Both the position numbers and the translations under genes were made by a program. Of a stretch of DNA of 62,751 nt, positions 29,681 to 35,270 are shown piece after piece; positions within the stretch are counted from its first letter, which is position 1; every line of letters begins with the position of its first letter. The notes beneath the pieces were generated by a model. That model worked only from the letters and a program-made list of their open reading frames with translations. It did no database searches and was not told the origin of the DNA. The DNA lies in IMG/VR virus record IMGVR_UViG_3300018469_000176, positions 1 through 62,751 of that record; one strand, given 5' to 3'. The DNA comes from a virus.

Positions 29681-31033
29681 TCATCTCTGCCGCATGAGCG
29701 ATAGCGCGCGCGTGTGGGACGCCTCCTCGGCGGCGGCTACGGCCGGGGTGATCTCGACCGCCAGGTAGGACACCTGCAGGACGTTCGTGGCCGGGGTGGT
29801 CCAGCCATAACTGGTGGAACCGGGAGTGCCGACCAGACCCATGCCTTTACCGATGATCGTCGTCGCGGCATTGCTGGCGTTCTGCCAATAGTCCAGGCTC
29901 ACCGTGGCCGCATTCGGGGTGTAGACGGGCGTATTCAACCCAATGCACGACAGTAGGTAGACCATTGATCCGGCTTTGCTGGTAACCAGGTTATCCAGAG
30001 ACGTTCCCGTGTTTACCGCAGCGGACACAAAGTGCGTCTTGACCGCGCCAACCGGGTTCTGCCCGACACCACGGAGGACTCGCACGGCGACCGGCAACGA
30101 CACCCCGGACGTCCCGGTACGCGTACAGGTAACGGTCATGGCCCCGGGCGACGTTTGAATGTCTCGGTACCAGATGGTGCCCATTCCGTAGGCGTTGACT
30201 GCTTCTCCGTCAACGTGCCCCGCTACGGCATAAGCACCACCCACGGAATCGAATGCGCCCAACGGTTGAGCCGCTCCGGCACTGGTGAGAGCCATCGCAC
30301 AGATCACGACAATGACCGAGTTGGCGGGCGGGGTGAACGACGCCGTGACGACGGACGTCTGCGCACCGGTGCTGCTCCGGATGACGGGCGGGGTGGAAAC
30401 GTCCTCGAAGACCCCGGTCGGGTCCGTGATGGACGGTCCGGCCTCGTGAGTCGCCCCGGTTCCACCGGTGAGGGTCCGCCCGTTTCCCGAGTAGTCGCCA
30501 GGCTCCTCGACGATGAACCGGTGCGCTCGCAGGTTGTTCGCGGTCCGCGCCACGTCGTACTGCGCGAGCTCCGTCGCGACCTCCCCGGAGCTGAGCGCGG
30601 CCTGCCACATTTTCACGTTCGTGACCGAGCCGTTGAAGAAGTCCCCGGCGGCGTCGGAGGTGCCGACCGTGAAGTTGTTCGGGGCGGGCGGCGCGGAGAT
30701 CGTGCCCGAGGTGGGGGTGAGAGCGCCGCCGTCCGGGCCGACATACAGGGTCCCGGAGGTGCCCGAGATGACGACGCCGATCTTGTACCAGGCGCCCACG
30801 GTGAGCGCGACGGACCCCAGCGTGGTGCCGAGATTGAACAGGCGCAGCGTCGTGCCGTCGGTGTCGGTGGCCAGCTCGACCCCGCCGGTGCCGTCGTAGA
30901 CCCCGGCGATGCAGGAGAACTGGTTGCGGTCGGTGGTGATCTTTGCCCAGCACGTCATGGACCACGTGGTGGACGCGGGGAGGCCCGTCGTCCCGGCGTA
31001 GGACTGGCCGGACGCGCTCCAGCGAACGGCCAT
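29681..31033 (-). CDS. LamG-domain minor tail protein
   Basis: Residues 1-165 of this 450-residue protein form a LamG/concanavalin-like jelly roll: STTWSMTCWAKITTDRNQF, GAWYKIGVVISGTSGTLYV and FNGSVTNVKMWQAALSSGEV are typical Laminin_G_3 segments. A second beta-rich domain (about 225-435) contains SVIVVICAMALTSAG and VSYLAVEITPAV. LamG domains in phage tails bind glycans or proteins on the cell surface. Middle codons (about 29930-30250) are somewhat AT-richer. Confidence 0.8.
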   Translation of the reverse strand: MAVRWSASGQSYAGTTGLPASTTWSMTCWAKITTDRNQFSCIAGVYDGTGGVELATDTDGTTLRLFNLGTTLGSVALTVGAWYKIGVVISGTSGTLYVGPDGGALTPTSGTISAPPAPNNFTVGTSDAAGDFFNGSVTNVKMWQAALSSGEVATELAQYDVARTANNLRAHRFIVEEPGDYSGNGRTLTGGTGATHEAGPSITDPTGVFEDVSTPPVIRSSTGAQTSVVTASFTPPANSVIVVICAMALTSAGAAQPLGAFDSVGGAYAVAGHVDGEAVNAYGMGTIWYRDIQTSPGAMTVTCTRTGTSGVSLPVAVRVLRGVGQNPVGAVKTHFVSAAVNTGTSLDNLVTSKAGSMVYLLSCIGLNTPVYTPNAATVSLDYWQNASNAATTIIGKGMGLVGTPGSTSYGWTTPATNVLQVSYLAVEITPAVAAAEEASHTRALSLMRQR

Positions 31034-32280: not shown

Positions 32281-32868
32281 TCAGCAGGTCGGTTGGTAGT
32301 TGACCTCGTCGCCCGGGGGCTGATCGCCCGGAGGCATCGGCAGCTGCCCACCGCGGGCGTGCCGACCGATGCGCTGGCCGACGAAACTGCCCTGCTCGCC
32401 CGACAGCATCTCGTCCACCGGGTACTGCGGATCCGGGTCCGGCACGTGCATGTCCACCGGGTCCGTCGCGTCCGGGTCCGGCACGTGCAGATCCGGCGGC
32501 ACGACGAGCATGCCCGGCGGCGGTGGGGCCGGCACCCGCGCGACGATCTGAGTGCGCGCGTACGCGGCGAACCCGGCGGTCAGCGCGGTCATGATCGCCG
32601 ACTGCACGTAGGGGGTCAGGGCCAGCCCGAAGGCCAGCGCGAGCGCCATCGCGGCCTGGATGAAGCCGAGCACCGCCGGCGGTACCCGGTCGGCGGCGGC
32701 GAACGCCGCGGTGAGCACCCCGGCCAGCGCGACCACGGCCGCGTTGACCAGGCCCTGGATCTCGATCGAGAACGGGGCGTAGAGCGCGGTGCCCAGCTGG
32801 GTGGCGACGGCGACCAGGCCCAGCCATAGCGCGGAGTCGCGTAGGAACACGGTGCGGAATGCGGTCAC
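32281..32868 (-). CDS. Putative holin (multi-pass membrane protein)
   Basis: Residues 12-110 of this 195-residue protein contain three to four hydrophobic helices (ALWLGLVAVATQLGTALYA, GLVNAAVVALAGVLTAAF, AAMALALAFGLALTPYV). A hydrophilic Pro/Asp-rich tail with an imperfect VPDPDATDPVDMHVPDPD repeat follows. Membrane bundle plus polar tail is typical of holins. No lysin lies next to it, since the endolysin-like gene is at 52 kb. GTGA couples it to the lipoprotein gene upstream. Confidence 0.55.
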   Translation of the reverse strand: MTAFRTVFLRDSALWLGLVAVATQLGTALYAPFSIEIQGLVNAAVVALAGVLTAAFAAADRVPPAVLGFIQAAMALALAFGLALTPYVQSAIMTALTAGFAAYARTQIVARVPAPPPPGMLVVPPDLHVPDPDATDPVDMHVPDPDPQYPVDEMLSGEQGSFVGQRIGRHARGGQLPMPPGDQPPGDEVNYQPTC

Positions 32869-33488
32869 GGGTGGGTCCAGTTCTGCAGCATCGCGGCCCG
32901 GGCGTCGGGGAGTCGGATCGCCCGGGTGCACACCGCGCGGTGCAGATCGTTGGCCATGTTGTTCTTGACCTGGGCACCTCGGGGCCCGTTGCGCGGTTCG
33001 GGCCACAGGTTGCGGGGGTCGGCCACCGCGCCGCCCAACGACAGCGGGATGAGGTGGTCTTCCTCGATCACGGTGTTGGACATCTCGCCCAGCCCGTAAC
33101 GGATCTTCTGATCGTTCTTGAGGGCGGTGGTGTAGGACGACGGCGGGCGCACGGTGGCGGTCCAGCCCGGCTTGCAGATCGTGGTGTCCAGCGTCTGTTC
33201 GGTCACGTCGGGGTTGTGCGCGCCCGGGGTGCACCGCAGGTCCGCGCGGCCATCGACGATCGTGCACGGTCCGGTGTAGGGGCCAAGCGCGGCGCCAGAG
33301 GCCGGTGCCGGGCCCGGAGCGGGGGTCGAGGGGGCGGGTGTCGGCGAAGGAGCGGCCACGGTCGGCGAGGCCGGCGCGGTCACGGTGCTCAGGTCGGGCA
33401 GCGGCGTGGCCGGGTTGGGGCTGCACCCGCTGATTGCCAAGACCAGCGCGCACGTCCACACCCAGTTCGCCCGTCTATTGGACATCAT
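32865..33488 (-). CDS. Lipoprotein with HNH-like C-terminal domain
   Basis: This 207-residue protein has a signal peptide ending in a lipobox (LVLAISGC, Cys about 22), then an Ala/Pro/Thr spacer to about residue 70. A Cys-containing domain follows with EEDHLIPLSLGG (140-151) and NLWPE, the ββα-metal pattern of HNH-like nuclease domains found in secreted actinobacterial proteins. Anchored outside the membrane, it could act on incoming DNA or on a receptor. Superinfection exclusion by phage lipoproteins is known (T5 Llp), and that role here is inference. Confidence 0.7.
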   Translation of the reverse strand: MMSNRRANWVWTCALVLAISGCSPNPATPLPDLSTVTAPASPTVAAPSPTPAPSTPAPGPAPASGAALGPYTGPCTIVDGRADLRCTPGAHNPDVTEQTLDTTICKPGWTATVRPPSSYTTALKNDQKIRYGLGEMSNTVIEEDHLIPLSLGGAVADPRNLWPEPRNGPRGAQVKNNMANDLHRAVCTRAIRLPDARAAMLQNWTHP

Positions 33489-34170: not shown

Positions 34171-34776
34171 TCAGGGGCTCAGGGCTCCGAAGGCGACGAT
34201 GTTGTCCCGGTAGCTGTGCCGGGCGGTGTCGAGCTCCCCGCCGCAGGTGACCAGCCGCAGCGTCGGCACGGCCTGGTCGCCGTAGACCCAGCCGGTCGGG
34301 AACCGATCCTTGCTGACCCGCTCGCTGTGCATGATCGTGTACCGGCTGGAAGTCCCGTCGGCGCGGTGCACGGTGACCGTGTCCCCCTCGGCCAGCTCGG
34401 TCAGCTGCGCGAACAACCCGGGCTGCCCGCCGCCGTTGACGTGGCCCAGGATCACCGTGGGGGTGGTGGCGGTGGGCGCGCTGGCCCGCCAGTAGCCGCC
34501 CTGCATCGGCTCGGTGACCGGCGGAACCTCCACGGTGCCGTTGGGCTGCAGCCCGAGCGGGATCAGCGTCGACCCGGCGATACCGAGGCGTTTGATGTCG
34601 AAGGTGATCGGCGCGGCCAGTGGGGGCTTGGCCAGGATCGTCGGGGGCACCGGGGAGTCATGCCGGCCGGCTGTGGTGGGTGGCTGCGGGGCCCCACCAC
34701 AGCCGGCCGACAGCACCAGGGCGAGCGTCGCACCCAGAATGGCAACTGCGCGCCCGATGCGGCCTTGCGGTCTCAT
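34171..34776 (-). CDS. Class E/F-type sortase, lipoprotein-like N-terminus
   Basis: The 201-residue protein has a hydrophobic signal ending in LVLSAGC (lipobox Cys 26). The sortase beta-barrel follows: TPTVILGHVN with catalytic His 112, LRLVTCGG with catalytic Cys 178, and HSYRDNIV with Arg 190. FAQLTELAEGDTVTV is the usual sortase strand-turn segment. Sortases cleave a sorting motif and attach proteins to peptidoglycan or to each other. Sortase genes are rare in phages. It is coupled by ATGA to a gene for a secreted protein that ends in a sorting-like motif, so the two probably work together on the lysogen surface or on the virion. Confidence 0.85.
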   Translation of the reverse strand: MRPQGRIGRAVAILGATLALVLSAGCGGAPQPPTTAGRHDSPVPPTILAKPPLAAPITFDIKRLGIAGSTLIPLGLQPNGTVEVPPVTEPMQGGYWRASAPTATTPTVILGHVNGGGQPGLFAQLTELAEGDTVTVHRADGTSSRYTIMHSERVSKDRFPTGWVYGDQAVPTLRLVTCGGELDTARHSYRDNIVAFGALSP

Positions 34777-35270
34777 GCCCCGCCGGTGTCCGCGCCGCCC
34801 ACGGGGAGCTGGCTGAGCGAGGACACCGTGGCTCCGGTGGCGGAGTCCACCGTGGTGAAGGGCGCCGGCGTCGCCGACACGGTCACGGTCGGCTCGGGGA
34901 CCGGGGTCGTGGCCGGGAAGATCGGGACGCCGGCGATCTGGGTGCAGGACACCACGGGGGCCGCGCCGGCCTCCTGGGTGAGCGCCTGCTCGTTGGCCTG
35001 GGCTAGCGGGCCCGGGGTCGTGGTGGTGGTGGGGCCGGTGTTGGTGCCGGACTGGGTGCCGGTGTTGGTCCCGCCGGTGGCTTCCGCGATGGGCACGCAG
35101 ACCTGGGTGACGTTGCCGTTGTTGCTGTCGTTGACCGAGCTGTCGTTGTTGCTGTCGTTGGTGCTGTTGTCGGTGGTGTCCTGGGCGAACGCGGCGCTGG
35201 GCGCCAGTGCGAGGGCACCGACCACGATCAGGGAGCTGAGCGCCAGGCGCAGGGCGGATCGGGCGGGCAT
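34773..35270 (-). CDS. Secreted protein, probable sortase substrate
   Basis: This 165-residue product has a Sec signal peptide (LSSLIVVGALALAPSAAFAQ, cleavage after AFA). An Asn/Asp/Ser-rich low-complexity stretch (NDSNNDSSVNDSNN) and a Thr/Gly linker follow. The C-terminus LPVGGADTGGA resembles the P-x-G-G-x-x-T-G tails I recall on proteins encoded beside actinobacterial class F sortases. It lacks the membrane helix and charged tail of a classical LPXTG anchor. Two cysteines (58 and 109) could form a disulfide. The start region overlaps the end of the upstream gene by 43 bp, which is long for this phage. Confidence 0.7.
   Translation of the reverse strand: MPARSALRLALSSLIVVGALALAPSAAFAQDTTDNSTNDSNNDSSVNDSNNGNVTQVCVPIAEATGGTNTGTQSGTNTGPTTTTTPGPLAQANEQALTQEAGAAPVVSCTQIAGVPIFPATTPVPEPTVTVSATPAPFTTVDSATGATVSSLSQLPVGGADTGGA

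Follow-up and report, generated by a model that had tools for sequence, protein, structure and literature searches.

Soil actinobacteria are rich in class F sortases. The role of these enzymes is still called unknown in papers up to 2026 (PMC13251363, PMC6998099), and joint deletion of four chromosomal class F sortases of Actinoplanes missouriensis (SrtF1-4) gave no phenotype (PMC13251363). The characterized class F enzyme of Cutibacterium (Propionibacterium) acnes accepts LPQTG in vitro (PMC7451113). The phage sortase described here best matches the same class, but the tail of its putative substrate is a stub of the form P-x-G-G-x-x-T-G rather than LPQTG. A different class is represented by SrtE1, whose substrates, the chaplins, bear classical sorting signals. 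This class E enzyme of Streptomyces coelicolor, which acts on LAXTG chaplins (PMC5148588), is likewise actinobacterial and likewise tied to a pentapeptide other than LPXTG, but differs from the phage sortase in class.

By analogy, the nearest tested precedent for the phage pair is AbpA with SrtB of oral streptococci. The AbpA signal, LPKTS-AVK, has no membrane segment, and wall anchoring has been shown with the adjacent SrtB; LPKTS plus three residues suffices (PMC4974636). In both cases, sortase and secreted protein are neighbors, and the C-terminal signal of the latter (putative in the phage) is very short and lacks a membrane segment. The streptococcal pair differs in that the sortase is of class B, the motif is another one, the genes are chromosomal and the system has been tested experimentally. 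In the open-licence literature, we found no paper on a phage or viral sortase.

Here, we analyzed a sortase gene and its neighbor in a viral sequence of 62,751 nucleotides (IMG/VR record IMGVR_UViG_3300018469_000176, positions 1 to 62,751), termed the window. The window carries portal, terminase, tape measure and minor tail genes, as well as genes for a family A DNA polymerase and an SNF2 helicase. Its portal protein is closest to that of Streptomyces phage Samy (41% identity), and no terminal repeats were found in the window. What is new is that sortase and candidate substrate are phage-borne, that the enzyme is probably lipid-anchored, and that the putative signal lacks the defining membrane segment.

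A sortase gene overlaps the gene of a secreted protein

The features of the locus are as follows.

34171..34776, minus strand: class F-like sortase, 201 aa, predicted lipoprotein (Pfam, NCBIfam, AlphaFold2 and Foldseek)
34699..34713, minus strand: sortase lipobox LSAGC, residues 22-26 (sequence)
34441..34443, minus strand: codon of sortase His112, catalytic (invariant in 47-sequence alignment)
34243..34245, minus strand: codon of sortase Cys178, catalytic, in TCGG (invariant in 47-sequence alignment)
34207..34209, minus strand: codon of sortase Arg190, the usual sortase Arg position (not strictly conserved)
34773..35270, minus strand: secreted protein, 165 aa, probable sortase substrate (signal peptide and tail motif)
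35184..35270, minus strand: signal peptide of the partner, residues 1-29, ending SAAFA (sequence)
34776..34808, minus strand: putative stub sorting signal LPVGGADTGGA, C-terminus of the partner (kept in 17 phage pairs and in host partners)
34773..34776, minus strand: ATGA overlap of substrate stop and sortase start (sequence)

The sortase matched the Pfam Sortase family at 3e-16 (59.7 bits; cut-off, 26.6). Among class models, NCBIfam class_F_sortase (NF033748) was the best, at 3e-41 versus 6e-4 for the next class, and all 47 aligned sortases matched it. The score of the window enzyme, 140.5 bits, falls under the curated cut-off of 166, so we call it class F-like. An AlphaFold2 model had a mean pLDDT of 87.8 and was confident across the catalytic domain. 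With Foldseek, the model matched solved sortases of several classes (109 matches at E ≤ 0.001), the best E value being 7e-8 to SrtA 7f87. As modeled, the enzyme has the sortase beta-barrel fold.

An earlier note on this DNA had listed His112, Cys178 and Arg190 of the sortase, and all three are present. H112 and C178 are unchanged across the 47 homologs. Arg190 is not universal: among 62 sequences, this position is R in 45, T in 10 and L in 6. The neighboring Asn192 is nearly invariant; in actinobacterial class F enzymes, Asn is reported to replace the catalytic Arg (PMC6998099). The N-terminus carries a clear lipobox, so the window sortase is probably a lipoprotein rather than an enzyme tethered by a transmembrane helix. 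A script detected a lipobox in 18 of 18 stub-tail phage sortases, window included (with L070 judged by eye), versus 24 of 59 chromosomal sortases.

The upstream gene encodes a protein that carries the export signal MPARSALRLALSSLIVVGALALAPSAAFA, the signal peptide ending in AAFA, and terminates in SQLPVGGADTGGA, directly followed by the stop codon. Like a classical substrate, then, it has a signal peptide. Its pentapeptide region is GADTG, with the Pro lying further upstream, which fits the class F partner motif. No transmembrane segment or basic tail follows the motif, and the C-terminus lies three residues past the Thr. The ATGA overlap and the tail LPVGGADTGGA are as the earlier note had them; the lack of a classical membrane anchor and the lipoprotein-like character of the sortase go beyond it. 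Third-position GC is 0.91 and 0.95 for the sortase and partner genes, respectively, as would be expected of genuine genes in this genome. Scans of the partner body against Pfam, PHROG and NCBIfam gave no match. Single-sequence searches with the window substrate found no relatives, because conservation is confined to the tail, and the sortase was used as the handle instead. We also considered a –1 frameshift that would join the tail to the signal peptide of the sortase, the frames being suitably related. This fusion was dropped, because the overlap codons vary among phages and share no common slippery site.

The two-gene unit recurs in phages

Sortase relatives were absent from 50,697 phage genomes searched with the window sortase and three other queries. 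The window sortase matched no PHROGs entry, and a search of BFVD with its model gave no match to a viral fold at an E value of 0.001. These data bear out the rarity in phages that had been claimed. The first relative found in IMG/VR lies in a prophage of Pseudonocardia parietis, where the same gene pair is present and the partner has the tail VPVGGVETGGGPAA. When a profile built from 26 sequences was used, 27 IMG/VR loci were obtained; these include the P. parietis locus already found, as well as one sequence in three copies. Loci were picked via conserved sortase peptides and their gene calls are mechanical; their viral status rests on IMG/VR and on neighboring genes. At 17 of the 27 loci, all further phage contigs, a lipobox sortase has a secreted, stub-tailed protein encoded upstream. 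At least 17 other phages, uncultured or integrated, thus have this two-gene unit.

In most phage pairs, the sortase start lies three bases before the end of the substrate stop (offset of –3). The 18 tails aligned on Thr, window included, mostly read P-x-G-G-V-[DEN]-T-G-G-G, and the motif of the 17 further partners can be summarized as P-x-G-G-[VA]-[DEN]-T-G-G-G. Two to seven residues follow the Thr (five in L074). A classical sorting-signal transmembrane segment plus basic tail was seen in 0 of the 18 stub-tail partners. Loss of the tail from homologous pairs, which the earlier note had raised against its own reading, was not the outcome: 17 further phage pairs keep it. Partners in L082 and L084 have transmembrane tails, those in L073 and L077 have longer tails, and no partner is visible beside the sortase in L080 or L086/L087/L089. 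In all eight comparisons made, dN was smaller than dS. The ratios were just moderately low, near 0.8 for the sortase pair L078/L079, and these rates indicate moderate constraint on the pair.

The stub tail is conserved beyond chance

We trained a position matrix solely on nine chromosomal class F partners having transmembrane tails, and used it to score the final 25 residues of each open frame at every phage locus. In the window, the partner tail ranked 1 of 559 stop-to-stop frames, in agreement with the earlier proposal that it resembles the tails of actinobacterial class F partners. Together with the signal peptide, this rank supports the coupling of the sortase to a probable secreted substrate. 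The matrix placed the partner first in 14 of 20 sources, window among them; the rank-2 match in L079 is a frame other than the true partner and was left out of the count. In the three sets of sortase loci scanned, a related C-terminal regular expression matched 52 frames on the sortase strand versus 0 of 7,351 on the opposite one. Conservation of the stub tail is beyond chance.

The partner bodies are diverse. That of the window had no match among the other phage partners at E 0.01, and Excalibur domains were seen in two of those scanned. Within the tail, synonymous sites vary between phages. Because the bodies differ and these sites vary, it is the protein tail that is kept. An invariant tail on changing cargo is the pattern that a sorting signal should produce.

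Host chromosomes carry the same tail motif

At 63 chromosomal loci, many partners adjacent to the sortase bear the phage tail motif. Chromosomal class F sortases of Herbidospora, Actinomycetospora and other Pseudonocardiaceae resemble the window enzyme in best-matching class and in having an adjacent secreted partner, and the motif P-x-G-[AG]-x-x-T-G is shared. In Herbidospora, Acrocarpospora and Phytohabitans partners, a transmembrane segment and arginines follow the motif. Stubs free of a transmembrane segment occur in Actinomycetospora, where partners end within one residue of the motif (VKRVPSGGVDTGN), and in other Pseudonocardiaceae, where many stub tails, e.g. IPVGAPQTGGGGTAR and LPKGAPETGDGTYAG, are found on either side of the sortase. 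We found no description of this host sorting signal in the open-licence literature. The phage pairs differ from these chromosomal loci in being phage-encoded, in lying in late regions, and in the higher frequency of a lipobox given above.

Of 390 genomes from the family that includes Pseudonocardia, 298 have a sortase homolog at E 1e-25, the best being ∼54% identical to the window enzyme. A tree placed the window and P. parietis sortases inside a Pseudonocardiaceae clade (support 100/92), the window on a long branch, and requires at least three switches between membrane-bearing and membrane-free partners. Because Pseudonocardiaceae chromosomes share the membrane-free stub tails, the phage pairs look like captured copies of a host system.

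Several chromosomal loci of Pseudonocardiaceae (within L095-L123) have two stub-tailed proteins around a single sortase; a given enzyme may thus act on several substrates. In Acrocarpospora and Herbidospora partners (L032, L034, L035, L041-L054), P-x-GGVDTG-x-GG is repeated upstream of the final copy, with acidic runs between copies.

Genome context and host

Of 22 related records, 8 have a portal recognizably like that of the window and the others do not. The pair is therefore carried on differing phage backbones. Among pooled neighbors of the pair, endolysins, r1t-type holins and tail fibres were matched most often. An endolysin gene lies shortly 3′ of the pair in L068, L074, L075, L078, L083 and L085; in the window, none was recognized beside the pair among the genes tried in Pfam and PHROGs scans. 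We found no integrase in the window, either of the tyrosine or of the serine type, and a tyrosine integrase was present in 8 of the 22 related records, many of which may be fragments. Given this distribution of integrases and the lysis and tail neighbors, a late role in the lytic cycle is favored for the window phage over conversion of a lysogen, with the reservation that records may be fragments. The lysogen framing of the earlier note is thus not supported for this phage.

A LamG-domain tail protein is encoded at 29681-31033 (minus strand) of the window. It is 45% identical over 209 aa to a protein of the P. parietis prophage (L067 12400-13023), and on this basis the host is likely a member of the Pseudonocardiaceae.

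Two other genes of the window lie nearby. One, at 32865-33488 (minus strand), encodes a predicted lipoprotein; part of it (EEDHLIPLSLGG...NLWPE) is HNH-like. Homologs of this protein are encoded near the sortase pair in L092 (47%) and L077 (40%). This protein might be an exported nuclease that works with the pair. The other, at about 32281-32870 (minus strand) and 3′ of the pair, encodes a hydrophobic protein that likely crosses the membrane several times and may be a holin.

Proposed mechanism and alternatives

We consider it likely that the pair is a self-contained actinophage module for wall anchoring, with chemistry that we infer as follows. Both proteins would be exported. A lipid at Cys26 would anchor the sortase to the outside of the membrane, in place of the usual N-terminal helix. 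There, it would meet the co-translated partner as the latter emerges and recognize the C-terminal stub, P-x-G-G-x-[DE]-T-G-G. Cys178 would cut the Thr-Gly bond and the Thr would be transferred onto an amino group of a peptidoglycan precursor. Because the substrate has no membrane segment, capture probably relies on the overlapping genes and the membrane location of the sortase. In favor of anchoring, the enzyme has the sortase fold with invariant His and Cys, the tail fits a matrix built from chromosomal partners with transmembrane segments and basic tails, and the pair, its tail and the lipobox recur across phages while the partner bodies differ; the lysis and tail neighbors, dN below dS and the AbpA precedent also count for it. 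Against it count the use of LPQTG by the characterized C. acnes enzyme, the sub-cut-off NF033748 score, the moderate dN/dS, the viral sortase contigs with no stub partner, the lack of a recognized endolysin next to the window pair, and the absence of a phenotype in the Actinoplanes quadruple deletion.

The module is probably expressed late, alongside tail and lysis genes, and the anchored protein would most likely change the wall of the infected cell. Receptors may be masked, which would keep out rival phages or limit the loss of progeny that adsorb to debris; alternatively, lysis may be tuned. Our confidence in such a late role in receptor masking or wall tuning is low; of these effects, late receptor masking best fits the gene position.

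The same chemistry could instead let a prophage remodel the lysogen surface, for superinfection exclusion or adhesion. In P. parietis, the pair is found on a contig of the bacterial genome, and its viral record also contains an integrase; in total, 8 of 22 records have tyrosine integrases. Yet the window has no integrase of either type that we could find, and the genes around the pair are late tail and lysis genes, a kind that is normally silenced in lysogens. Exclusion or adhesion is a possible role, but we regard the lysogen explanation as rather doubtful. It is less probable still that the phages acquired the pair from a host chromosome only recently and carry it as a neutral passenger. The clustering of the sortase with Pseudonocardiaceae enzymes (100/92) and the abundance of homologs there (298 of 390 genomes) would suit such an origin, whereas the retention of frames, overlap and tail in 18 phages of varied backbones, and dN < dS, already disfavor it.

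If the sortase were a hydrolase that trims C-termini, or a releasing enzyme, the partner would be soluble and not wall-bound. An anchor-free substrate should largely escape, just as AbpA is also found in the supernatant (PMC4974636), and the Arg position is variable across the family. However, chromosomal relatives combine the motif with transmembrane segments and basic tails, like classical anchored substrates, making this explanation unlikely. Attachment of the partner to released virions, another suggestion of the earlier note, would account for the nearby tail genes and for the collagen-like and fibre neighbors in some phages. But both proteins have export signals while virions assemble in the cytoplasm, and no virion acceptor was found; we judge this highly improbable.

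Returning to wall anchoring, recurrence in at least 17 other phages means that the two-gene unit is probably a real phage means of altering the wall of the infected cell. If so, anchoring to the wall adds a new way for phages to modify the surface of their hosts. In the small two-gene phage units, the enzyme and its likely substrate are easy to pick out, making the signal directly testable. If the stub works anchor-free, the usual rule for retention of sortase substrates needs widening. More broadly, we lean slightly toward the view that the stub P-x-G-[AG]-[PVA]-[DEQ]-T-G-[GD]-G plus 0-5 residues is a general, hitherto undescribed sorting signal of actinobacterial class F-like sortases, free of a membrane anchor and served by lipoprotein sortases made together with their substrates, and that phages have repeatedly co-opted it and decorate infected walls.

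Other membrane-free tails occur beside actinobacterial sortases. In Gordonia (L061, L062, L064, L065), pilin-like proteins ending in SIPTGRTH or similar directly precede a distant sortase; these tails are membrane-free, yet their motif differs, and they were not pooled with the rest. In Blastococcus (L011, 6937-7950, and further loci), the class F sortase has a membrane-free partner that is ice-binding-like (Pfam Ice_binding, 1e-48), with the tail RVPVGSVNAGGGG...RLWSS.
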